From Polytrichum commune (lineage: Eukaryota > Streptophyta > Polytrichopsida > Polytrichales > Polytrichaceae), in assembly GCA_950295325.1 (NCBI GenBank), contig OX485803.1:40751554-40815553 (forward strand): a stretch of DNA of 64,000 bases, given 5' to 3'. The position numbers and the translations under genes were made by a program. Shown in pieces: positions 4,252 through 29,870 of the stretch. How positions within the stretch are numbered: position 1 is the stretch's first letter; every line of letters starts with the position of its first letter. The notes under the pieces were generated by a model. The model worked only from the letters and a program-made list of their open reading frames with translations, had not been told where the DNA came from and did not search any database.

Positions 4252-4878
4252 TCATTTGGGAGTTAGTTTCACCCCAGTTGGCTCCAAGCCAGGTAAGGCA
4301 GGGTAGGCATGGGTTGTATCCCTCGTAGGTGTTGTGGTTCCCGAATTTTCTCCTAAACCTGATAGTAATTCCCATTGGGATATGGTATGTAGGTTGGTTT
4401 CTTTTTCATCCTTTTGGTCATACCTTATGAGTTTTAAGGTATCTTTTGGATGGACATTCTCTTGTTTTGAGGGATGTATGTGGTATACTTCTAGCATGAC
4501 CCTGTGCATTTCCAAATCTTCAGCATCTAAGGTTTCTTGACTTTGGTAAGAGGTGGAACCAGTATGTGAAATGGTTTCCTTAGTTGAATGAGAAGATGTG
4601 GTGAGGGGAATTTGTGTGGTGCTAGTCCCTTTGTACAAATGGTTTTGTTTTGCTCGTATCTCCGTTTCCAAAAAATGGCGTGCTAAAATTTGTAAGGCAT
4701 AAGCCTGAGTTGATTTGGGCTCTTGGTATGGTTTTAGCTTGTTCATGTTGACTCGTCCCAAACTGTCTCCTTGTAGGGTGGTAACATCCACTGAACCATT
4801 ATCATAGACTTGTTGAACTAGATAAGGTCCTGCCCATCGTATTTTGAACTTGCCCGGCCCGGGTATTTTATGGCGCAA
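4252..4878 (-). CDS. Integrase C-terminal domain and tail (frameshifted fragment)
   Basis: The 208-codon frame opens with an artificial TTG start; real similarity begins with KFKIRWAGPYLVQQV, followed by Asp-Gly-Ser-Val and VNMNKLKPY. This is the gypsy-type integrase C-terminal beta-barrel signature (a Gly-Pro-Tyr turn, then an N-x-x-x-LK-x-Y end). The frame continues upstream to at least about 4900 with F-Y-P-G-Q-R, which also fits that domain, so the switch from the integrase frame lies somewhere between about 4890 and 5050. The domain is followed by about 150 hydrophilic Thr/Ser/Glu-rich residues to the stop at 4252. No chromodomain is visible in this tail. Confidence 0.7.
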   Translation of the reverse strand: MRHKIPGPGKFKIRWAGPYLVQQVYDNGSVDVTTLQGDSLGRVNMNKLKPYQEPKSTQAYALQILARHFLETEIRAKQNHLYKGTSTTQIPLTTSSHSTKETISHTGSTSYQSQETLDAEDLEMHRVMLEVYHIHPSKQENVHPKDTLKLIRYDQKDEKETNLHTISQWELLSGLGENSGTTTPTRDTTHAYPALPGLEPTGVKLTPK

Positions 4879-6377
4879 GTGCCATAAGATTCGTTGGCCC
4901 GGATAAAAGTGTGTTTTGGGTGTAGTATTTTGCTCCCCATCTTCGTTACTTCGAGAGTTTGACTTTTCTCCATAGCTCGAGTAGGATCCTCTTTCAAAGT
5001 GTCGTGTTTCTTAGCCTCCTTTCGGGGTGGCTTGGTTATCCCAAGGTCACAATGTTGACATTGTCTCTTCGCCCGAGGTTTGTCATGTCTTTCCTTTCGT
5101 AATAGCTGCATATGTGTCATGTTTTCTTCGGCTTCATGTCTGGTTAAATCCATAGTTCTGAGCTGTTCCATTCTCTTCTCGAGTATGGGATGAAACTCTT
5201 GATTCCGTTTCTGGTAGACGTCGGGGTGAAGGTAAGCCATAGGTAACAAGGCTTCCGTCCCGAACACTAATGAGAACGGAGTGTGCTTGGTAGTAACCTT
5301 ATAGGCTGTCCTATAGGCCCAAAGTGTTGCATGTAACTTGGTGTCCCAATCTGTTTGATTGGCGTTAACCATTTTGGTCAAGGCAATCTTAATTACCTTG
5401 TTGGTACTCTCTGCTTGCCCGTTTGCTTGTGGGTAGTAAGTGGTTGACTTCCGATGTAAAATCATGAACTCTTGGGTGAGTACCTTAATAGTGTCATTGA
5501 TAAAGTGACTTCCTTGGTCGCTCACGAACTCCAATGGACAACCAAATTTTGTAATAATTTCCTCAAAAAGGAATTTGGCTGTGGATTTTGCCGTGTTATC
5601 CTTTAAGGCTCTGGCTTCCACCCATTTAGTGGTGTAGTCGGTAGCCGTGATAATGTACCGATTCTTGGTACCTTTAGCTGGCGGGTTGACCGGTCCGATG
5701 AAGTCCAAACCCCATTTCTGAAATACCTCTGTGGGCATTGTGGGATGTAAGGGTTGGAGATTGGTTGAGATTTTTGGGCCAACCCTTTGACAGATATCAC
5801 ATTGAGTGCAATAAAGATGGACATCTTTCTTCATGGAGGGCCACCAATACAAGGCAGTTAAAACCTTGTGTAAGGTGATGTTGGCTGAAAAGTGCCCTCC
5901 AGCTATTCCTTCATGAGCTTCTGCGATAATGGCTGTAGTTATTGGTCCAGCTACGCATGTCCTCCGAATACCATCGGGCCCTTCTTTTATCAAAGTCCTG
6001 TTGTGGTTTAGCATGTATGGACGACTTCGTATGGCGATTTGTTGTCGCTGTGTGGTTGAGGCTTCCGTGGTCAGCCTCCCGTGTGTCAGGTAATCGATGA
6101 AAGGTATTCTCCAGTCCGGTTCTTCTTTGTCCTTGATCGTGACAGTTTTGCAGTCAACAACATGCTCCGGGGTTTCATTGGGCCAACAAACTCTACACTT
6201 CTTGCATAGATGGTCAATGTCCGGAGGAATTGTGGGCCACCAATAAGGCCCTTGGGTGACTTGTAAAATCATTTCATCCATTGAAAGATGAGGGTACCGT
6301 TGATTGTGAATGGTTGTCAACCATTCGATTCCTCTTTCTTGAGAGATGCACAGTCTCGTTTGCCCATTAATTTGCAA
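4818..6377 (-). CDS. Retrotransposon integrase: zinc-binding modules 7 (part) and 8 plus D,D35E core
   Basis: The frame starts with a TTG that is not a real initiator; it is the shifted continuation of the frame ending at 6367. Residues 4-64 finish module 7 (CKKCRVC). Residues 88-196 are module 8, the orthodox one next to the core: His155, His162, Cys193 and Cys196. The catalytic core has Asp225 (WGLDFIG), Asp287 (VSDQGSHF) and Glu323 (NGQAESTN), with exactly 35 residues between the last two, so the D,D35E triad is intact. A W-AYRT and TPFSLVFG block follows, typical of the gypsy core end. After about residue 420 the sequence becomes Lys/Arg-rich and loses family character before a stop at 4818, because the true C-terminal domain is in another frame. 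Role: joins the reverse-transcribed DNA to the host chromosome. Confidence 0.9.
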   Translation of the reverse strand: MQINGQTRLCISQERGIEWLTTIHNQRYPHLSMDEMILQVTQGPYWWPTIPPDIDHLCKKCRVCWPNETPEHVVDCKTVTIKDKEEPDWRIPFIDYLTHGRLTTEASTTQRQQIAIRSRPYMLNHNRTLIKEGPDGIRRTCVAGPITTAIIAEAHEGIAGGHFSANITLHKVLTALYWWPSMKKDVHLYCTQCDICQRVGPKISTNLQPLHPTMPTEVFQKWGLDFIGPVNPPAKGTKNRYIITATDYTTKWVEARALKDNTAKSTAKFLFEEIITKFGCPLEFVSDQGSHFINDTIKVLTQEFMILHRKSTTYYPQANGQAESTNKVIKIALTKMVNANQTDWDTKLHATLWAYRTAYKVTTKHTPFSLVFGTEALLPMAYLHPDVYQKRNQEFHPILEKRMEQLRTMDLTRHEAEENMTHMQLLRKERHDKPRAKRQCQHCDLGITKPPRKEAKKHDTLKEDPTRAMEKSQTLEVTKMGSKILHPKHTFIRANESYGTCAIKYPGRASSKYDGQDLI

Positions 6378-8994
6378 AACTTCGCTTTAACTTTCCTTTC
6401 TTTAGAAAGTAATGAGGTAATTCCGTCCGTAAGGTACCCAACTCTTCATGAAAGGCGAAGTCGCTTAGTTCCATTGGGTTTTTGAGGTATTGAATGATTG
6501 GTTCTCTCCAATCATGTGTCTTATGATTCTGGAGGAAGATAGTCCCGTAGTTCTCGATTTTAAGGCCTGACGTTGCAGTGATCTGACATGGTTTACATTC
6601 GTCAATTAAGTGGTTTATATCTGAAGAAATGGTGGGCCACCAATATGGGCCTTTGTGTACTTGTGTGAGTACTTCTTTTCTCGTTAGATGCGGTATTTGA
6701 TATTCATGTATCCTCTTCACCCAATCCTTGGCGTCTTCTTTGGCCACGCACATCTTAACTTCCCCATTTGGTAATCGATATTTCAACCCATCTTCGGCTA
6801 TGAAATACGTCTCGGTGTTAAGGCTGAGTAATCCCAACTCTTCATGTGTACCAACATGGTTTAACTCCTCAAAGCTCTTTAGTCGTTGTGAGATTGGTTG
6901 TCTCCAATCTGGCTTAGGTGTTGGTTTTGGTGAAGATGAGTTTTGATTTTCCCTGGGGCATTCCTTCGGTGTCTCCGTTCCTCTGCAAGTTTTGCAGTAT
7001 CTTAAATGGTTGCACACGTCATTTCCCCATGTCGGCCACCAGTACGCTCCTGTGGCCACGGCCTTCCATGTTTCTATGGCAGCCAAGTGGGGTTCGCTTT
7101 CCCCATGTACCTTGGCTAGGTACCTGGGAACTTGAGTCTCGGGGATACAAACTTGGTTACCTTTTCCTCCTTTGCGTATCCGTTGTAACGTGCCGTTGCT
7201 GAACACAAAGTACTTCTGGCTTTGTGTTACCGTCCTTTTTACCTCTGGTGGTAGGGTTTGGTCGAAGACCTCTTTGCATGTTAGGTACTCCATGTAAGGA
7301 CGTCTCCAATCTGCAGCAACCCCTCTTAGTAGGTCTTTCCGGTCCAGAGGTGATGGTGTCTTCGGGTCTTTTGAAAACTCTGCTTGGTTGCTGCATACCG
7401 TACATTTCCGACGGCATAAGTTGTTAATGTCGGCTCCGCATGTGGGCCACCAATATGGCCCAAACATGATTAGGTGCCACATTATCTCTTCGCTAAGATG
7501 TTCCCCGGATTCCGTAACATGTAATTCTTGCAGGTATTTGTTGATTTCACGTCCCGCAATACATATCTTCACGTCTCCATCCGAGAATATCCTCTTTAGT
7601 TTTCCTTCTTCAATGAAATATTTCTGGCTTTGTCGAGTTATCCTTTTGTATTGATTCTTCGAGATGCGGGGTCCTTTCAAATACCCGTATGTGAGGTATT
7701 CTATAAGTAATTTCCTCCAATCCTTGTTGTCATGAGCTTGTACGATGACGGACCCGCAAATTATGTTATGGAGCGGGCCTCGAAATCTTCTTCGACAAGA
7801 CGGGCAGTCGTACATAATGTAGATTTGTATGTCACACAGCCCCATCGTGGGCCACCACCGATTCCCTTGCGAGCATCGAAGCCAAGTTTGTTGGTCGTCT
7901 AAGTGTCTCTGCTGGTGTACGTGCATTTTCCCTATCCAATGCTTTATTTGGTAACCAGCGATGCAAAGTTTAGCCATTCCATTCTTCTCCAGTTTTCGAA
8001 GTTTTCCCTTTTCCAAAGTGAAAATTTCGCTCTCTCGTATGGTTTCCCTCTGCCCTCTTTGGGTCTCCATGTCCATTTTGAATCTTCCATGTGCCAGATA
8101 TTCGACTAGAGGCGTTCTCCAATCGTTGAAGGTTTCCTTGTATGGTATAATGTCCGTCCCGTTACCAGGTTCCGAAGAGCTTGCTTCTGTTGGCAACTCT
8201 TCTCCTCGTTCTTCACACTCGGTGCATAGTGTGATGAGTAGTGAGACGTCTTCCGCTATAGTTGGCCACCAATAAGGACCTTTTAGAACCAATTCCCTGG
8301 TGGCGCTTATAGGGAGATGCCGATTTTCTCGTATATGGAGGGTCTTGATGTAACTCTTCACATACCTTCCAGGCATACATTTCTTTGTAATGCCGTTATG
8401 AAACATGCGGTGTAACTCTCCTTCAATGAGTATGAAAAATTTGCTTCGGTACACTACCAATTTCCTTTCTTCTTTGGGTAGGGAACTCACCCAGGGGGTT
8501 CCGTGTGTTAGACAAGTTAGGTATTAGACATATGGTGTTGTCCAATCCGATTCTGCTTTTCCTGTCATATCTTCTTGCGCTTCCAAAGGTTGTACAGGGA
8601 GTGGATCGTCGTCGTCCTCTGAATCTTGTGGGGTAATATTCCCGGTTTTGTTTCCTTGGTCAACAACCTTACATACCGGACATTCTTGACAGTATTCCAG
8701 TACGTCTCTTCGTCGAGTAGGCCACCAATATGGGGTGCGTAGTATGTAATGCCATGTTGAAGTTAGATTGTAGTGTATCCCATCTTGCTCATGGGCTTCG
8801 CTTATGACTTCTTCAATGATGTCCCCGGCTATACACTCATGTATCTTGCCGGAGATACTGACTCGCTTGAGCTTTGCGTCGTCTAGGACGAAGGGCTCAC
8901 TCAGTTGCCTGATCTTGTTTTGTTTTCGTGGGATAGCTAGAGCTGACAACAATCTTCCGTGGGTAAGGTACTCAATGAAAGGTGCTCGCCAGTC
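5790..8994 (-). repeat. Eight tandem protein modules of the integrase zinc-binding type
   Basis: Module starts (Asp of D-W-R/T) and last Cys: M1 8994-8671, M2 8547-8215, M3 8124-7795, M4 7722-7393, M5 7311-6985, M6 6909-6586, M7 6513-6186, M8 6116-5790. Spacing is 396-447 bases. Each has D-W at position 1, mostly followed by a Y-L pair near 9-10, a Cys-Ile/Val/Met near 54, His near 68, His 6-8 residues later, a W-W-P near 90 and a CxxC near 105-110. The Cys-Ile site, both His, W-W-P and CxxC are kept in all eight although the rest is strongly diverged. Known gypsy elements have one such unit between RNase H and the integrase core. The modules are separated by 25-40 residue polar linkers. Confidence 0.9.
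6367..8490 (-). CDS. Pol continuation: zinc-binding modules 2-7
   Basis: This 707-codon frame is in the same frame as the Gag-Pol ORF; only the TAA at 8524-8526 separates them, and its nominal start is a GTG inside module 2. It contains the rest of module 2, complete modules 3 to 6 and the first half of module 7, ending at a TAA at 6367-6369 created by a one-base shift near 6380. The downstream frame resumes the module immediately. Landmarks: WWPT at each module, CxxC at residues 89-92, 229-232, 363-366, 499-502 and 632-635, and paired His 7-8 residues apart upstream. Apart from these modules there is no other domain. Presumed role: multiple DNA- or protein-binding zinc fingers N-terminal to integrase. 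Confidence 0.85.
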   Translation of the reverse strand: MSSLPKEERKLVVYRSKFFILIEGELHRMFHNGITKKCMPGRYVKSYIKTLHIRENRHLPISATRELVLKGPYWWPTIAEDVSLLITLCTECEERGEELPTEASSSEPGNGTDIIPYKETFNDWRTPLVEYLAHGRFKMDMETQRGQRETIRESEIFTLEKGKLRKLEKNGMAKLCIAGYQIKHWIGKMHVHQQRHLDDQQTWLRCSQGNRWWPTMGLCDIQIYIMYDCPSCRRRFRGPLHNIICGSVIVQAHDNKDWRKLLIEYLTYGYLKGPRISKNQYKRITRQSQKYFIEEGKLKRIFSDGDVKICIAGREINKYLQELHVTESGEHLSEEIMWHLIMFGPYWWPTCGADINNLCRRKCTVCSNQAEFSKDPKTPSPLDRKDLLRGVAADWRRPYMEYLTCKEVFDQTLPPEVKRTVTQSQKYFVFSNGTLQRIRKGGKGNQVCIPETQVPRYLAKVHGESEPHLAAIETWKAVATGAYWWPTWGNDVCNHLRYCKTCRGTETPKECPRENQNSSSPKPTPKPDWRQPISQRLKSFEELNHVGTHEELGLLSLNTETYFIAEDGLKYRLPNGEVKMCVAKEDAKDWVKRIHEYQIPHLTRKEVLTQVHKGPYWWPTISSDINHLIDECKPCQITATSGLKIENYGTIFLQNHKTHDWREPIIQYLKNPMELSDFAFHEELGTLRTELPHYFLKKGKLKRSFAN

Positions 8995-11900
8995 TTCGAA
9001 TGGTTGCACGTGAACCATGAATAAACTTGCGTCCGGAAACTGGTCTTGTACCCCTGAGGGGTCTTCTCCACTTTCTATCCTTGATAGGTGGTCAGCCATT
9101 ACATGGCTCCTACCAGGCTTATAAACTACTTTAAAATCGTACTCTTGAAGTAACAGCATCCATCTCGCGATTCGCCCGGACACCACTGGTCGATTGACCA
9201 AGTATAGCAGGGCTTGATGGTCCACGTAGAACACGAAATGGTTTGCTAGCAAATAGTGTCTGAACTTGCCCACTGAGTAGATCATTGCTAGGGCTTCACG
9301 CTCCGTCGTACTATAGTTCTTCTCCGCACTGTTTAGGAGTCGACTAGCGTAATGAATTGGGGAATCTCTATCCCTGTGTATGTTCTGAGCGAAAACGGCT
9401 CCAATTGCGATGTTCGAGGCATCGCAGTGTACGTGGAACTCCATGGTCCAATTGGGAGTTACCAAAATGGGTGTAGTGGTTAACATTTTCTTCACTTCTT
9501 CGAAGGCCTCTTGACAAGATTTTGTCCAAATGTACTTCTCTCTTTTCTTGAGTAGTAAGTACAAAGGCCGAGTGATCTCAGCATACATCCATATGAATTT
9601 CCGATGGTATGTAGCTTGGCCCAGAAAACTCTGAATTCCTCGTACGGTGGTTGGTGGAGGTAATCCTTTGATAACTTCCACCTTCTTCGGATCCACCAAC
9701 AATCCTTCTTTGCATACCACGTGCCCTAAGAGTCTCCCTGAATTAACGCAGAAAAAACACTTTTTTGGGTTCAGGCTTACTCCATTTTCGCGGCACTTAA
9801 CGAGACATTTTTCCAAATGCTCAATGTGGTCTTCTTTGGTTCCATAAACTGTAAAATCATCTAAAAACACCTTCATGAATTTGTCGAGGTAGTCGGCAAA
9901 TATCTTCATCATGCCCCTTTGGAAAGTGGCTGGTGCACACATTAATCCAAAGGGCATCACCCTGTACGCGAATGCTCCGTACTCGGTGATGAAAGACGTC
10001 TTCAGCTGATCTTCTAAGGCGATCATGATTTGGTTGTAGCCACTGTACCCGTCCATCAACGTGTACATCTCATGTCCTGCAACCGCTTCCAAGATGGATT
10101 CTGTAAAAGGTAAAGGAAAAGGATCTACCTTGGTGACTGCATTCAGTTTTCGATAGTCGACACACACTCGCAGTTTCCCATTCTTTTTGGGTACAATCAC
10201 GATTGGTGACAGCCATTCGGTTTTATCCACGGGATATATGAATCCCGCCTCCAAGTACTTGTCTATCTCTTCTTTCACCTTGGCTGCGTAATTAGGGTTC
10301 ATCCTATAACGCATTTGTCGTATCGGCTTGGCTTCCGGCTGTAGCTCAATCTTATGCTCGCACACATGAGGGGGTATTCCCTTCATGTCTTTGTAGGTAA
10401 AAGCAAACACATCCTTGAATTTTAGGAGTAGCTCTTTCACCTTTGCTTCGTATTCTCCCAAATCTTTCGCGATTTTGACTAATTTAGGCTCCTCCGGAGT
10501 TCCTAAGTTTAAATTCTTCACCAAGTCTTCATCTTCAACTGTCCACCCTGCTATCTTCTTCCCTTTAACGGCTTCTGAGGCAGGGGTGCGATCAATCTCT
10601 ATCTCTCCTTCTTTTGCTTTGTAAAACTGGGAGGGATATATCGGTTTCTCTTCCATAGCTTCTTGTTCTTTCTTCGTTGCTTTTCTTGACCGAGGTTTCT
10701 CGGTTTCACCTTTTCGTGATCCAGGTTTTCCTGGCTCGTGGTGAGTATCAATCTTCACTGTGTCGCAGCTTGGTTCTCTTAGCTTCTTCAAGCTTTTCAA
10801 ATCAAAGTTCCCCATGGGTAGCAGTTCTGGGAAAGCTTCATAGACTATCGCTTCTTCTTCATCGGACAATCCCATTTCCCAGTCATAGTCTTCCCAATTT
10901 AAGGGTCTCTTGGCCGGTGGTAGTGCCGGTGTTCGTTGGGTGCTTATCTCCACCTTGTTTCCACCCTGCGTTAAGGTCAATTTGTTGAGGGGCCAATCAT
11001 GTTGTGCTTGGGCCTCTTTTAACCATGGCCTCCCTAGCAAAAGGGAGTAACTGTCTTCGGTACTCACCATGTCTATGACGGTGAGTGTCGTTCTAATCAC
11101 GATGCCGCCGACATCCAGTCGTACGTCTCGGATGATTCCCTTGGGCATGACCTTTCTTTGGTCAGCCATTTTTATAGTGAATGGTGCAGGCTCTATCTTC
11201 TTGAGCCCCAATTTCCTTCTCAATGTATCAGTGATGATGTTCACTCCTAATCCACCATCGATCAACGCGTTCGGTATTCGTTTATTCTTTACGATCACTG
11301 ATATCATGGGCATTTCCTCATCGAATGCCTTTGTTGTCACTTGGTATGTAGAGGTCGGTTTCTCAGACGTTCCTTCTTGGCTGGTAAGGGCAGCCATTAC
11401 CCATTTCCTACAATAGGGGGCTATCTCTAGTAGTTGCCCTATTGAAATGTTGGCTCTTGTGTGATTCATCACATTCTCCAAGATCTCATCTACCCTTGCC
11501 TGGGTAGTCTTTGGGGCGCCTCCTTTCTCGGGGCTCCGTTCTTTAGGCTTCCTTGCTTCTTCTTCTTCTGGGTACCAAGGTGCGAACTCTTCTGGCGTGG
11601 GTAGAGCTTCGCCCTCTTCCTCCTGTATTTCCGTGATAGTTTTACTCACCTCTCGGTGGACTCTCCTATCTGCTTCCCATTCATTGCTGTTGGCTCCTAT
11701 TGGCCTTTCCTCTTCCTCCTTATCATCAACGTGTTCATCTTGCTCGAACACCTCCTCTTTGTCTTCATCGGGGTGTGCGTCCGGCTCGCGCACAACATCC
11801 CTCTCTTCATCAGAGTTTTCATCTCTTTGTTGGTGGTCTTCCTGCTCCTCAGAGCTGCCACTGCTCGAATCGTCGTCATCATCACTATCGTCACTTTCGC

Positions 11901-14100
11901 TATCTTCCTTGCCTCCCTCGGCCGCAGCCCGTTGGGCTCTTGTCATCACACACACAGCAGGGGACACCACGTTGGCTCCCACGGCTGGCTTAGCATTCCT
12001 GAATCCACTCAACTCCTGTTGGTGTTTGATAAAGTGCGGACAGTCCGTCTTCCGGTGTCCCTTTTGATGACAGTAAAAACACTCGTCGGGGTTGCCATCT
12101 CGCTGAGGTACGCCAGTGTACCCAGTTCTCGGCGCTGCCTTGGTGTTGGTACTGTCCATCAAGCTTCGGTTGTATTCATGGTTGATAGGTCCTCTGGGAC
12201 CTCCTCGGTAGGGGTATCCATCTTCCCTCCGGTAATCTTGGCTCTTGTAGGGGTAGTAGCCTTCCCTCCTGAAGTCATCTCTGTAGTTGTCGTTGGGCCT
12301 AAAATAGGGCCGTTCATCTCTGCGATATTCATTTCCCCGGTAGGGGCCTCCCGCCTCCCGCCGGTAATCGCCTTCCCTGAATGGGGACCTTTCATCTCTT
12401 TTGAATTCTATCCTTGGTTCAAACCGAACCCTTCTGTCATTCGTTTCTCGCCTAGGAGTGATCGCTCCTGGCCTTCGATTGGATTGGGGTTGTATTTGAT
12501 TTACCCCATATCTTCTATCCCGGGGTCTCCGAGATTCGTGCCTTTCATAAACACACTCACTTGTGTTATGAGTAAGGCTATTACAATTTGTACATTGTTT
12601 CATTTGACACTCTTGCACGTAGTGCCCTTCATTTCGGCATCGCCGACAAATTATGCCCGTTCTGAATTTCCGGCTTCCCAAAGCCAGTCCTCCTATCTCT
12701 TCTCTGAGAGTCTTGATGTCATCTTTGGTTGAGTTATTTCTTCTACTCTTTGTCTTCTTTTTCTTCTTTCGCCGTTCTTCCTCTGAGTCATCACTTGACT
12801 CCTCACTGTCACTCTCATCGAGGAACCTCCCTTTCCTCATCTGTCCTAATTCCAACTTCCGTGCCGATGCTTTTGCTTCATCCAAGTCATCGGTCGGCAT
12901 TAAATCAATGTGCTTAGCGTATTCCTTTTTCAACCCATTAAGGAACCATGCTTTCTTGAATTGATTACTAGGTTGAGGGTGAATCTTTGATGATTCCACC
13001 ATAACCCTTTCATAAAATTCCTCGACTGTCTCGTCTTTCTTTTGCTTGAGGGAGCCTAAGCTTTCAATGACTTCTCCCTCTGATTTCTTTGATCTGAATC
13101 TCATAAGGAAGGCAGTTCCTAAACTTGGCCAGTCCGGAAAATGGTTTGGGCCAAATTGGGAGTACCATTCCAAGGCTCGTTTCTTTAAGGTAACAGGGAA
13201 TAGTTGTAATTTGATCGCGTCTGTGTCTTCTTGATTTGCGAGACACACGTTGTTGAACTCTTGCATATACGTATCGGGATCCGTCTTACCCTTGTAGGTT
13301 GGTAAGGGAACCTTCGTTCTTCGGGGTTGTGCGGCCATGTTGACTGGGTTGGGTAAGTTGCTTCCAACACCAGGTGGGTTGTTGCTCTTGGCTGGTGGTG
13401 GGCTGACTCCGGTGTTAATTCCAAGGTTTTGGAATTGCTTAAGTTTCTCTTCAAACTTCCTCCGTAGGTCGTCAAACTCTTCTTGACTGATGGGTCTTTT
13501 TACTCCTTGGTCCGTGTTATCTTGTGTGCTTTCTCCGGAGAAGCCGGAGTCTTCAAAGCTAAATTGTTCTTCAAAATTTCTTTTCAATTTCTCCCAACTC
13601 TTTGGGTTGAAAAGATTTTCCTCAGCCGTGTTTCCTTGATGGGTGTTGTCCTGCGCTTTATCTACTGGGGTATGTGTACCCGTGTTTTTACCTGTACCTT
13701 TCGTTCTCAACACATAGGTTCCAAGAGGGGTGCCTATTATCAGATCATCCTCATCTTCCTCGTTTTCTCCCTGATTCAAGTTCTCTTCATCCAAGTCTTC
13801 ATGTCCTTTGCTTGTCTCACCATTACCTCCTCCTTCACTTTGACTTCTATGGTGGCTGGGCTTAGGGGTGTGGGAACCTACTGCCGGTGGTTCAGAGGCG
13901 TATCGGCTCTCTTCACTTCTTGTAGTTCTTTGTCTTGTACGCCTAGCGTACCTCTCTTCTCTTTCTCTCTTGAGTTGTTCAGTCCGCCTTATGCGGTCTT
14001 CTCTGGAATGCATGCGCTCCACATGCTTCTTCTCTGCCTCCTGTTCTCTAGGAGTTGGTGATGTACTTCTCATACTAGATGTATCCTCATGATCAACCAT
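8524..14100 (-). CDS. Gag-protease-reverse transcriptase-RNase H polyprotein
   Basis: Starts at ATG (MVDHEDTSSM). Residues 1-250 are charged and disordered. Gag core at about 260-420 (PLPTYKGKTDPDTYMQEF, then LEWYSQF). Zinc knuckles CX2CX4HX4C at 485-498, 503-516 and 674-687. A Tyr/Arg/Gly repeat region at about 575-645 and a Glu/Asp-rich linker at about 715-830 follow. Aspartic protease at LIDGGLGVNII (Asp948) with LLLGRPWL as the second signature. Reverse transcriptase from about 1230, with LRVCVDYRKLN, MPFGL, and active site FLDDF (Asp1414, Asp1415). RNase H from about 1555 (HCDASN Asp1560; TTEREALA; YVDHQALLYL; ADHLSR). Module 1 starts at 1703, and the frame ends at a TAA inside module 2. 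Gag and Pol share one frame, so no frameshift is needed between them. All catalytic residues are present. Confidence 0.95.
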   Translation of the reverse strand: MVDHEDTSSMRSTSPTPREQEAEKKHVERMHSREDRIRRTEQLKREREERYARRTRQRTTRSEESRYASEPPAVGSHTPKPSHHRSQSEGGGNGETSKGHEDLDEENLNQGENEEDEDDLIIGTPLGTYVLRTKGTGKNTGTHTPVDKAQDNTHQGNTAEENLFNPKSWEKLKRNFEEQFSFEDSGFSGESTQDNTDQGVKRPISQEEFDDLRRKFEEKLKQFQNLGINTGVSPPPAKSNNPPGVGSNLPNPVNMAAQPRRTKVPLPTYKGKTDPDTYMQEFNNVCLANQEDTDAIKLQLFPVTLKKRALEWYSQFGPNHFPDWPSLGTAFLMRFRSKKSEGEVIESLGSLKQKKDETVEEFYERVMVESSKIHPQPSNQFKKAWFLNGLKKEYAKHIDLMPTDDLDEAKASARKLELGQMRKGRFLDESDSEESSDDSEEERRKKKKKTKSRRNNSTKDDIKTLREEIGGLALGSRKFRTGIICRRCRNEGHYVQECQMKQCTNCNSLTHNTSECVYERHESRRPRDRRYGVNQIQPQSNRRPGAITPRRETNDRRVRFEPRIEFKRDERSPFREGDYRREAGGPYRGNEYRRDERPYFRPNDNYRDDFRREGYYPYKSQDYRREDGYPYRGGPRGPINHEYNRSLMDSTNTKAAPRTGYTGVPQRDGNPDECFYCHQKGHRKTDCPHFIKHQQELSGFRNAKPAVGANVVSPAVCVMTRAQRAAAEGGKEDSESDDSDDDDDSSSGSSEEQEDHQQRDENSDEERDVVREPDAHPDEDKEEVFEQDEHVDDKEEEERPIGANSNEWEADRRVHREVSKTITEIQEEEGEALPTPEEFAPWYPEEEEARKPKERSPEKGGAPKTTQARVDEILENVMNHTRANISIGQLLEIAPYCRKWVMAALTSQEGTSEKPTSTYQVTTKAFDEEMPMISVIVKNKRIPNALIDGGLGVNIITDTLRRKLGLKKIEPAPFTIKMADQRKVMPKGIIRDVRLDVGGIVIRTTLTVIDMVSTEDSYSLLLGRPWLKEAQAQHDWPLNKLTLTQGGNKVEISTQRTPALPPAKRPLNWEDYDWEMGLSDEEEAIVYEAFPELLPMGNFDLKSLKKLREPSCDTVKIDTHHEPGKPGSRKGETEKPRSRKATKKEQEAMEEKPIYPSQFYKAKEGEIEIDRTPASEAVKGKKIAGWTVEDEDLVKNLNLGTPEEPKLVKIAKDLGEYEAKVKELLLKFKDVFAFTYKDMKGIPPHVCEHKIELQPEAKPIRQMRYRMNPNYAAKVKEEIDKYLEAGFIYPVDKTEWLSPIVIVPKKNGKLRVCVDYRKLNAVTKVDPFPLPFTESILEAVAGHEMYTLMDGYSGYNQIMIALEDQLKTSFITEYGAFAYRVMPFGLMCAPATFQRGMMKIFADYLDKFMKVFLDDFTVYGTKEDHIEHLEKCLVKCRENGVSLNPKKCFFCVNSGRLLGHVVCKEGLLVDPKKVEVIKGLPPPTTVRGIQSFLGQATYHRKFIWMYAEITRPLYLLLKKREKYIWTKSCQEAFEEVKKMLTTTPILVTPNWTMEFHVHCDASNIAIGAVFAQNIHRDRDSPIHYASRLLNSAEKNYSTTEREALAMIYSVGKFRHYLLANHFVFYVDHQALLYLVNRPVVSGRIARWMLLLQEYDFKVVYKPGRSHVMADHLSRIESGEDPSGVQDQFPDASLFMVHVQPFEDWRAPFIEYLTHGRLLSALAIPRKQNKIRQLSEPFVLDDAKLKRVSISGKIHECIAGDIIEEVISEAHEQDGIHYNLTSTWHYILRTPYWWPTRRRDVLEYCQECPVCKVVDQGNKTGNITPQDSEDDDDPLPVQPLEAQEDMTGKAESDWTTPYV

Positions 14101-14215: not shown

Positions 14216-14854
14216 TTAAGTTCTTGTTTCTTGTTCCTGCTCCTGCCCCAAATTCAAGTTCCCCACACTACCATGCAAACCACCATACAGAGGTAAGAAT
14301 ATCTTTCTAACATACAAATCGTACAACAAACCTTCTTGTTTGTAATGGTAACCTCGATGTCGCGTTGCTCCTAACACATAGGCGCTAATTCCTTCTCTTC
14401 CGTCATTCCATATCTTAGAGAAAATTACTGCCTGCAGCTCCTCTGGTAACTCAGCAATGTTTCTCTCAAATTGTGACCGGTACGTGAATCCTATTTCTCT
14501 TTCTTGATGTAATTGCCAGACCTTGTCTTCATACATCTTCTGCATATCCCACATGAGATCGTGGAATCTCCTGGTTCCTTCCCATTTCTTCAAGGTTGTT
14601 CGACTGGTATCATACTTTGGATAATCCCATGGCCACTTACCTAAAGCCAAGACTTCTTGTTGCTTTGAGTTCTCTTCTTCTCCTCCTTCGCTTCCCTGCA
14701 CGTAGAATCCTCGGAGATTAAACTGTTCGAGTCTCCGTTGCACTGCTCTCTCTATACGATCTTGCTTCCGTGGTCCAAATGTTTCTTCCCATTTGCGTTT
14801 CTCATTCATCTCCTGTTGGAGTCTTCCACAATATAGGTAGTACATGTTCTCCAT
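14216..14854 (-). CDS. Leader ORF between primer binding site and gag, function unknown
   Basis: 212 residues from ATG (MENMYYLYCGRLQQEMNEK), 87 bases after the primer binding site and 115 bases before the gag ATG, in a different frame. It is rich in Glu, Arg, Lys, Gln and Trp, with helical character over residues 1-60 and 85-135 (RRFHDLMWDMQKMYEDKVW), a Glu-rich acidic patch near 55-65, then a more compact segment (GISAYVLGATRHRGYHY). No recognised domain, signal peptide or membrane segment. Ogre/Tat-type plant elements are known to carry an extra ORF before gag; similarity in position is clear, homology is not shown. It may be a structural or RNA-binding accessory protein. Confidence 0.65.
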   Translation of the reverse strand: MENMYYLYCGRLQQEMNEKRKWEETFGPRKQDRIERAVQRRLEQFNLRGFYVQGSEGGEEENSKQQEVLALGKWPWDYPKYDTSRTTLKKWEGTRRFHDLMWDMQKMYEDKVWQLHQEREIGFTYRSQFERNIAELPEELQAVIFSKIWNDGREGISAYVLGATRHRGYHYKQEGLLYDLYVRKIFLPLYGGLHGSVGNLNLGQEQEQETRT

Positions 14855-14940
14855 TGACGCCTGCCATCCAACTTACTCCCAAATATTGTACGTTGTAAAT
14901 TTTATCTTCTAATCTAGGTAAGTGTAACGTCCATGTGGCG

Positions 14941-14960
14941 AATCCCCAGCATGGTCGCCA
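14941..14960 (-). promoter_or_regulatory. Primer binding site for minus-strand DNA synthesis
   Basis: On the minus strand, three bases after the LTR end, the sequence is TGGCGACCATGCTGGGGATT. It begins with TGG, complementary to a tRNA 3' CCA, and its complement continues as a T-arm-like CGAATCCCC, so about 22 bases could pair with a tRNA 3' end. It is not the initiator-Met site (TGGTATCAGAGC). The tRNA identity needs comparison with tRNA genes; an elongator tRNA is inferred. Confidence 0.7.
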
Positions 14961-14963
14961 AAA

Positions 14964-15634
14964 TGTCGAGGTCACCTTCAAACCCTCAGCAAACTTAGAC
15001 GGTGTAACCCGCTGCTGACCGGTTTACATGGAAGTTACTCCCACCAAAATTAGATTCTCTTAGTTTCCAAAACTTGTGAAGGTGTCCGTTAACTCTTTGT
15101 TGACTAATTCTTGTGATCTTTAATTTATCGCTTTTGAAATCCTCTTGGAATCGTTGACCTGAGGTTACAAGTTTATGTTCCCCGAAATCTAATATTAAAG
15201 TGCTCTCTAAGAAACTACTTTCCTTAGTTCTTAATCATCTATTATATGTATGCCTCCCAGCATCCAAGAGTAGCGGATGAGCTGCAGAAAACCAAACGTC
15301 GAAGAGGACCAGGAGCGGCCGAGAACCAGAGGTGGAAGGGCTTGCAGGTGGCCAAATAGATGATTAAGAACTAAGGAAAGTAGTTTCTTAGAGAGCACTT
15401 TAATATTAGATTTCGGGGAACATAAACTTGTATCCTCAGGTCAACGATTCCAAGAGGATTTCAAAAGCGATAAATTAAAAAATCACAAGAATTAGTCAAC
15501 AAAGAGTTAACGGACACCTTCACAAGTTTTGGAAACTAAGAGAATCTAATTTTGGTGGGAGTAACTTCCATGTAAACCGGTCAGCAGCGGGTTACACCGT
15601 CTAAGTTGCTGAGGGTTCGAAGGTGACCTCGACA
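14964..15634 (-). repeat. 5' LTR, 671 bp, built as a near-perfect inverted repeat
   Basis: The ends are TGTCGAGGTCACC and GGTGACCTCGACA, starting TG and ending CA, and the inner end abuts the primer binding site. Beyond the short terminal repeat, the arms 14964-15244 and 15354-15634 are inverted copies over 281 bp, with only about five differences and one single-base gap, around a 109-bp unique centre. Either the LTR itself is palindromic, or a second LTR fragment was joined head-to-head. The second LTR lies outside the window, so the outer boundary is inferred from symmetry. Flank beyond 15634 starts TATATGAG. Confidence 0.65.
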
Positions 15635-27545: not shown

Positions 27546-27794
27546 TACTACACCAATTTCTCATTGCAATCAATTCACAATTTTACTTACAATTTGAAGT
27601 GTTTGGTTCATGAAACTATAGAGTCGTCCTTTACATCAACCGGAGTTTTGGTTGGGAGTTGGTTGATTTGCATACCGAACTTTCGATAAGTTTCAGGATG
27701 CATGCTTGAAATCAATGTGGAGGTTTGAACGGAAAACATTGTATACCGATCACAATGTTCTATATCATTTCAAGTATGTCCACTCTTGACACAA

Positions 27795-29789
27795 TCAATC
27801 AAAATCCTAGTGTTTCCAAGTCCAACTGAGTTACATGTTGTGATCCTCCAATTTCTCTACTTTGGGTTGGAGTACATTCCATAGATTCCTCTAAAACCAT
27901 CGGGTGATTCTCGTGAAGTCATGATGATCAATCAAAATCCTAGTGTTTTCAAGTCCAATTGGGTTACATGTTGTGATCTTCCAATTTCTCTTCTTTGATT
28001 TGAAGTATATTCCACAAATTCCTCTAAAACCATCGCATGATTCTTGTGAAGTCTTGATGATCAATCAAAATCCTAATGTTTCCAAGTCCAACTAGGTTAC
28101 ATGTTGTGATCTTCCAATTTCTCTTCTTTGATTTGAAGTACATTCCACGGATTCCTCTAAAACCATCAGGTAATTCTCGTGAAGTCTTGATGATCAATCA
28201 AAATCCTAATGTTTCCAAGTCCAACTAGGTTACATGTTGTGATCTTCCAATTTCTCTTCTTTGATTTGAAGTACATTCCACGGATTCCTCTAAAACCATC
28301 AAGTAATTCTCGTGAAGTCTTGATGATCAATCAAAATCCTAATGTTTCCAAGTCCAACTAGGTTACATGTTGTGATCTTCCAATTTCTCTACTTTGAGTT
28401 GGAGTACATTCCATAGATTCCTCTAAAACTCTCCGGTGATTCTCGTGAAGTGTTGATGATCAATCAAAATCCTAGTGTTTCCAAGTCCAATTGGGTTACA
28501 TGTTGTGATCTTCTAGTTTCTCTCCTTTGATTTGAAGTACATTCCACGGATTCCTCTAAAACCATCAGGTAATTCTCGTGAAGTCTTGATGATCAATCAA
28601 AATCCTAATGTTTCCAAGTCCAACTAGGTTACATGTTGTGATCTTCCAATTTCTCTACTTTGATTTGGAGTACATTCCACAGATTCCTCTAAAACTCTCG
28701 GGTGATTCTCGTGAAGTGTTGATGATCAATCAAAATCCTAGTGTTTCCGAGTCCATTTGGAGTACATGTTGTGATCTTCCAATTTCTCTCCTTTGATTTG
28801 AAGTACATTCCATAGATTCCTCTAAAACCATCAGGTAATTCTCGTAAAGTCTTGATGATCAATCAAAATCCTAATGTTTCCAAGTCCAACTAGGTTACAT
28901 GTTGTGATCTTCCAATTTCTCTTCTTTGATTTGAAGTACATTCCACGGATTCCTCTAAAACCATCAGGTAATTCTCGTGAAGTCTTGATGATCAATCAAA
29001 ATCCTAATGTTTCCAAGTCCAACTAGGTTACATGTTGTGATCTTCCAATTTCTCTTCTTTGATTTGAAGTACATTCCACGGATTCCTCTAAAACCATCAG
29101 GTAATTCTCGTGAAGTCTTGATGATCAATCAAAATCCTAATGTTTCCAAGTCCAACTAGGTTACATGTTGTGATCTTCCAATTTCTCTTCTTTGATTTGA
29201 AGTACATTCCACGGATTCCTCTAAAACCATCAGGTAATTCTCGTGAAGTGTTGATGATCAATCAAAATCCTAATGTTTCCAAGTCCAACTAGGTTACATG
29301 TTGTGATCTTCCAATTTCTCTTCTTTGATTTGAAGTACATTCCACGGATTCCTCTAAAACCATCAGGTAATTCTCGTGAAGTCTTGATGATCAATCAAAA
29401 TCCTAATGTTTCCAAGTCCAACTAGGTTACATGTTGTGATCTTCCAATTTCTCTACTTTGATTTGGAGTACATTCCACAGATTCCTCTAAAACTCTCGGG
29501 TGATTCTCGTGAAGTGTTGATGATCAATCAAAATCCTAATGTTTCCAAGTCCAACTAGGTTACATGTTGTGATCTTCCAATTTCTCTTCTTTGATTTGAA
29601 GTACATTCCACGGATTCCTCTAAAACCATCAGGTAATTCTCGTGAAGTCTTGATGATCAATCAAAATCCTAATGTTTCCAAGTCCAACTAGGTTACATGT
29701 TGTGATCTTCCAATTTCTCTTCTTTGATTTGGAGTACATTCCACGGATTCCTCTAAAACCCTCGGGTGATTCTCGTGAAGTCTTGATGA
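27795..29789. repeat. 133-bp satellite array, 15 units
   Basis: The landmark TCAATCAAAATCCTA recurs at 27795, 27928, 28061, 28194, 28327, 28460, 28593, 28726, 28859, 28992, 29125, 29258, 29391, 29524 and 29657: every spacing is exactly 133. Two unit types alternate, one with CTTCTTTGATTTGAAG and CCATCAGGTAATT, the other with CTACTTTG.TTTGGAG and CTCTCGGGTGATT. Units 8-11 are nearly identical; the outer units are the most diverged. At 28327-28858 the types alternate as a 266-bp dimer. On the minus strand each unit equals the middle of dispersed repeat A. No spacers, so this is not a CRISPR array, and no coding frame. Confidence 0.95.
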
Positions 29790-29870
29790 ACTTCAACCGC
29801 CGGTTATTTCTCAAACTCAACCCGCTCATCTGTAACTAACTTAGTGGTCGGTTCTCCCCGTCCATTGCTC
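29790..29870 (-). repeat. Dispersed repeat A flank of the satellite
   Basis: Read on the minus strand, GTTACAGATGAGCGGGTTGA, GAGAAATAACCGGCGG and TTGAAGTTCATCAAGAC lead straight into the first satellite unit, just as in the unamplified copy at 16870-17223. The array therefore sits inside a copy of repeat A. Confidence 0.75.

Follow-up and report, generated by a model that had tools for sequence, protein, structure and literature searches.

Tandem integrase N-terminal regions under selection in a Ty3/gypsy retrotransposon family of Polytrichum commune

The stretch of DNA analysed here, referred to as the window, comprises 64,000 nucleotides of contig OX485803.1 of Polytrichum commune (assembly GCA_950295325.1, positions 40,751,554 to 40,815,553) and contains on its minus strand a Ty3/gypsy long terminal repeat (LTR) retrotransposon, extending from ~15.6 kb down past window base 1, in which eight tandem units are arranged in series between RNase H and the integrase catalytic core. 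This element represents a plant-type Ty3/gypsy family with a multiplied integrase N-terminal region that is under selection, and a probability of about 0.95 is assigned to this reading of its anatomy and selection. The integrase N-terminal domain (NTD) usually occurs once per chain, and the number of NTDs in an intasome is set by the number of subunits. No description of tandem integrase NTDs was found in a literature search of open-licence PMC papers.

The repeated unit

Six of the window units served to build a profile, which was refined with 122 segments and recognises eight units of ~112 aa (m1 to m8, from RNase H to the core). This result confirms the claim of an earlier note on this DNA that eight integrase-type zinc-binding modules lie between RNase H and the core. 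Each unit opens with a D-W-(R/T) block and closes with a zinc-binding HHCC domain, and it is hence read as an integrase N-terminal extension (NED) followed by the NTD, so that the repeated unit would exceed the zinc domain alone. The earlier picture of a single eight-module copy was right on the eight units and missed this extent of the unit, the existence of relatives with eleven and five units and two disruptions of the window copy, in which m2 contains an in-frame stop and m7 changes frame. Scanning the units one by one with PF17921 (Integrase_H2C2), as the earlier note had proposed, gave matches for seven of the eight, four of them above the cut-off, and no match for m3. A single Pfam scan was rejected as the only criterion, since m3 is below detection when scanned alone though it possesses HHCC and a matching fold. 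The predicted folds of the units match foamy virus, Ty3 and murine leukaemia virus (MLV) integrases, with the NED+NTD arrangement of retroviral and Ty3-type integrases.

The window units are 22-42% identical to one another and are joined by linkers of 18-39 aa, of which the m1-m2 linker is strongly acidic, and the linker lengths plus several linker motifs are conserved among relatives. Mean net charge is +3.7 to +6.2 in m2-m5 and m8 and negative in m1, m6 and m7, the comparison value being a mean of +4.1 over 68 single-unit relatives.

Selection on the units and fate of the zinc sites

A search of the genome holding the window (408 Mb, 64 contigs) returned at least 64 matches to the array (62 of 972 candidates scored; a lower bound), and units were counted in the best 30 of 64, the window included. 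Ratios of nonsynonymous to synonymous substitution (dN/dS) were obtained by NG86 from 22 of these 30 loci, leaving out eight with broken or partial arrays (L010, L016, L021, L022, L033, L035, L038, L039); pairs with dS of 0.1-1.2 were used, those outside this range being left out, and the pairs are not independent of one another. Pooled values amount to 0.104, 0.142, 0.147 and 0.128 for m1-m4 (113, 168, 47 and 124 pairs) and 0.177, 0.222, 0.127 and 0.049 for m5-m8 (136, 60, 30 and 62 pairs), as compared to 0.038 for the core (106 pairs) and 0.091 for reverse transcriptase (RT)-RNase H (19 pairs). The units evolve faster than the core, and a ratio of 1 was reached by no tested pair, the highest value of a single pair being 0.42 among the units and 0.86 for the core. 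With values of 0.10-0.22 in m1-m7, 0.05 in m8 and 0.04 in the core, the array is shown to be kept by purifying selection on each of m1-m8, which agrees with the earlier argument for selection and not passive duplication.

The zinc sites are retained to a different extent in different ranks. In the window copy all eight units carry the HHCC ligands, and in the window together with database relatives 207 of 214 ligand cells are kept over 54 units, and within ranks the ligand columns surpass random columns in conservation (p 0.00025). Among the 22 own-genome copies, 160 of 176 m1-m8 units retain the full HHCC set, i.e. 22/22 for m1, m2, m7 and m8, 20/22 for m3, m4 and m5 and 12/22 for m6. The m6 unit of the other ten copies is devoid of three or four ligands (YPCY in six, YPYH in three, YPSY in one), m6 of P0004 and P0005 has lost two or three, and the third unit (f3) of a five-unit family lacks CxxC in both of its copies (L041, L040). 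Copies of m6 with the lost site exhibit a dN/dS of 0.292 (32 pairs) versus 0.180 (26 pairs) for those with HHCC, and m6 without its zinc site is relaxed, not neutral. Since m6 is still constrained after loss of the site, selection keeps the unit and not always the zinc site. Retention of zinc sites in all eight modules, as the earlier note had it, thus holds for the window copy and fails for m6 elsewhere, and its deduction that such retention reflects selection for zinc-bound folds finds no support in that form.

Copies and relatives of the array

The best 30 own-genome loci comprise 21 with eight units, eight with an eleven-unit form (L023, L024, L025, L027, L028, L029, L034, L038) and one truncated (L022). 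None of them is single-module, the kind of copy on which the earlier note had said that its claim would fall. Among the 21 eight-unit loci some are interrupted by stops or frame changes or have a unit divided into two pieces, in-frame stops are present in 11 of 201 own-genome units, and open frames of array copies reach up to 3716 aa. At the position of the m2 stop a residue is present in 22 of 22 other m2 units compared, so that this stop is private to the window copy within the compared set. In seven of the eight eleven-unit loci, ten complete units and the end of one more are visible, and L038 is broken with its first unit not seen; because RNase H lies directly before the first unit in both eleven-unit copies examined for it (L042, L043), eleven is exact in those copies. 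A five-unit sister family is known from two copies, L041 with five units and the core and L040 with four units, a cut fifth and no core. From 150 scored places with PF17921 matches in the same genome the 8 best were fetched, each with one unit in ~3 kb.

Protein databases yielded 13 relatives (12 ENA, 1 JGI) with 62-81% identity, in which all 55 units recognised best match one window rank, in order, and all 42 unit-to-unit junctions are likewise in order, with a linker length fixed or nearly so per rank. The full eight-unit span is not contained in any one of these proteins, and overlapping pieces run from RNase H-m1 (P0010) to m8-core. In the JGI protein P0012, m8 and the core are missing after m7, which runs into the C-terminal part. 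An array scan of viral contigs gave no match, and a pattern scan of genome contigs gave five pattern matches with no relative among them.

Origin and growth of the array

In the RT tree of own-genome elements the five-, eight- and eleven-unit elements fall in one clade (support 99) with single-unit elements outside, and the RT of the window element lies near single-unit elements, among them Riccia proteins, with ENA/JGI and Riccia proteins as the nearest entries; the closest RT relatives from elsewhere with the region covered have one unit each. In the unit tree, m1-m8 jointly form one group (99.7) apart from single-unit NTDs, and each rank forms one group with support of 77-100 (77 for m8) except for a support of 0 for m4, of which an earlier FastTree placed one unit apart from the other seven. 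The separate grouping of the ranks and the low identity between units support an old amplification, as the earlier note had suggested.

Array length is shown to have changed by a whole three-unit block, between eight and eleven, and the units p1-p3, which the eleven-unit form has in addition, fall inside the m1, m2 and m3 groups, respectively. In the eight-unit loci L017 and L018, m2 is 91% identical to p2, and m3 and m1 are 77% and 77-78% identical to their block counterparts, as compared to 60-68% (m2), 56-62% (m3) and 62-74% (m1) in ten other tested copies. As these two loci carry block-type units, the change would have occurred by block recombination or block loss, and the identities fit both an eleven-unit form arising from recombination of two eight-unit lineages and L017/L018 arising from eleven units by loss of the block. 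In the five-unit family, f1 falls in with m1 (support 83) and f4 joins the m6/m7 pair (support 94). Pure three-at-a-time growth from 5 to 8 to 11 was rejected, as there is evidence for the 8/11 step only, m6 and m7 form a pair of their own and the f2-m4 and f3-m2 groupings are weak (46 and 44).

A two-unit gypsy clade comprises P0027, P0038, P0041, P0134 and P0056 (fern Adiantum nelumboides), of which P0134 was the one new two-unit member among 4 proteins returned with the two-unit region as query. The sister of this clade is the single-unit P0053 (support 100, RT tree). A common origin with the window family was rejected on RT (approximately unbiased test, p 2.9e-6; tree without P0134), the unit tree alone being undecisive (2modA+array p 0.49; 2modA+2modB p 0.85), and judged by RT the clade is independent of the window family.

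Organisation of the element in the window

The polyprotein is encoded at 14160-4255, and Pfam places on it gag, a weak aspartic protease, RT, RNase H, Integrase_H2C2 matches over three consecutive open reading frames (ORFs) and the rve core, which is the gag-protease-RT-RNase H-integrase order of Ty3/gypsy with a protease match below the cut-off. LTRs, a primer binding site and a 5-bp target duplication, as in Ty3/gypsy elements, are also present, with the 5' LTR rearranged.

14964..15634, minus: rearranged 5' LTR (inverted, internally deleted LTR, then 280-bp LTR end), ATATA-flanked
14943..14960, minus: primer binding site, presumably tRNA-Arg-type (16/18 letters alike)
14219..14872, minus: 218-aa ORF between primer binding site and gag, no family match
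12928..13206, minus: gag (Retrotrans_gag, E 2.9e-10)
11026..11298, minus: aspartic protease (Asp_protease_2, E 0.0036, below cut-off)
9718..10194, minus: reverse transcriptase (RVT_1, E 4.3e-27)
9139..9528, minus: RNase H (RT_RNaseH and RT_RNaseH_2)
8665..8997, minus: unit m1 (NED+NTD; PF17921 E 2.8e-10)
8209..8547, minus: unit m2, in-frame stop at 8524-8526 (PF17921 part-unit E 2.2e-5)
7789..8127, minus: unit m3, HHCC present, best structural match of the units (scanned alone, no Pfam match)
7387..7725, minus: unit m4 (PF17921 E 3.1e-5)
6979..7314, minus: unit m5 (PF17921 E 2.5e-6)
6580..6912, minus: unit m6, zinc ligands present in this copy (PF17921 E 4.6e-6)
6180..6516, minus: unit m7, frame change near 6370-6386 (PF17921 part-unit E 1.1e-4)
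5784..6119, minus: unit m8, adjoining the catalytic core (PF17921 E 3.9e-15)
5430..5732, minus: integrase catalytic core (rve, E 7.5e-11; D,D-35-E spacing read from the sequence)
4255..5010, minus: C-terminal ORF that follows the core, read in a different frame in this copy; its start resembles the post-core part of P0007
850..2457, minus: 536-aa 3' ORF, no family match above cut-off

The element thus has an ORF preceding gag and another following integrase for which no family match was obtained. A chromodomain at the integrase C-terminus, as chromoviruses have it, was not found by Pfam in the core and the C-terminal ORFs, which are interrupted in the window copy, and a single RNase H stretch was found by Pfam, which a divergent archaeal-type RNase H, variable in position, could escape.

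The LTR measures ~2.4 kb (L009 7183-9614; start inferred from TG after the purine-rich tract), and an LTR search within the window alone found nothing, the 3' LTR sitting left of base 1. ATATA is present at both ends of the insertion (5' LTR in the window, 3' LTR in L009), which looks recent because the LTR end is identical at 280 of 280 bases between the window and L009. In place of the 5' LTR, an inverted LTR with an internal deletion is fused to a normal LTR end inside the intact ATATA duplication, and owing to this inversion the inserted DNA carries the same LTR end on either side. Elsewhere in the window, a tandem satellite occupies 27794-29822 with a period of 133 bp, its copies sharing 85-93% identity with the reference copy.

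Interpretation and alternative explanations

As rank identity, order and spacing are kept, parts with separate jobs fit better than interchangeable beads. The most conserved unit, m8, is likely the working NTD of the catalytic integrase, given its core-like low dN/dS and its position next to the core, while m1-m7 may form an arm of set geometry, in which the basic units m2-m5 would grip the LTR or cDNA and the acidic units m1, m6 and m7 would make protein contacts. One chain might in this manner make the NTD/NED contacts for which other intasomes bring in further integrase subunits, a proposal given even odds. Going by passages of the reports on Ty3 (PMC8632968) and the maedi-visna virus (MVV) intasome (PMC9065133), LTR binding and contacts between integrases are the most plausible first assumption, and the roles named in the earlier note (LTR-end or chromatin binding, a scaffold for multimers, targeting) may be counted among the candidates. 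More tentatively, at odds somewhat below even, NTD arrays in one chain could represent a distinct, repeatedly evolved land-plant gypsy architecture, with non-interchangeable units, growth and shrinkage by three-unit blocks through recombination between lineages that replicate together (from 8 to 11 and in reverse), one polypeptide replacing extra subunits and some units zinc-free in their role.

Two other functions are unlikely to a similar degree. The units might be cut free by the element protease and bind nucleic acids as proteins in their own right (chaperones of RNA or cDNA) and not as part of integrase, for which linkers of 18-39 aa with a strongly acidic one between m1 and m2, charges differing by unit and a divergence sufficient for independent proteins would be suitable; however, linker lengths and several motifs are conserved beyond the need of mere spacers. 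Alternatively, the array might be a targeting arm, in which various units would contact host chromatin or transcription factors and guide insertion. That each rank is its own lineage with its own net charge favours such an arm, as does the interaction of the Ty3 NED with TFIIIC described in the part of PMC8632968 consulted, but the single insertion examined, with its ATATA target duplication, says little. Passive duplication with extra units as tolerated passengers is highly improbable: length variation by a whole block, evolution faster than that of the core and the m6 site lost in 10 of 22 copies with relaxation thereafter speak for it, yet low dN/dS throughout m1-m7, the value of 0.29 in m6 with the lost site and the long open frames are opposed to it. 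An assembly or gene-model artefact or a lone degenerate copy, to which the stop and frame change could point, was rejected as next to impossible, since the array is found, whole or in part, at 29 further own-genome loci and in ENA/JGI proteins of other contigs.

Comparison with known systems

The natural length variants with 5, 8 and 11 units, together with a unit without zinc site, make the role of extra NTDs testable. Such arrays would be overlooked by surveys that set integrase matches aside as standard, as is done in the consulted part of one domain survey (PMC9289625).

Plant Ty3/gypsy non-chromoviruses (the Ogre/Tat/Athila superclade, OTA, and kin) have the same gag-protease-RT-RNase H-integrase order and extra ORFs, but their integrase N-terminal region is present once, whereas it occurs 5, 8 or 11 times in the window family. 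PFV (foamy virus) and MLV integrases have one such N-terminal region per chain, and the window units match the NED and/or HHCC domain of these and of Ty3 integrase by sequence or predicted fold. According to the sections consulted of PMC6317226, the primers of non-chromoviruses include tRNA-Arg, the presumed type of the primer binding site in the window element, and an additional archaeal-type RNase H marks the Tat clade of OTA. Ty3 integrase, as far as described in the part of PMC8632968 consulted, has one NED+NTD region per chain, unlike the window family. The fern-containing two-unit clade has two NED+NTD units in tandem at the place of the array in the window family, between RNase H and the core, and is a separate RT clade. 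In the MVV lentiviral intasome, as presented in the portion of PMC9065133 consulted, many NTDs are united in one complex and are derived from sixteen separate chains, whereas in the window family the NTDs are encoded in one chain, the likeness between the two being an analogy only.
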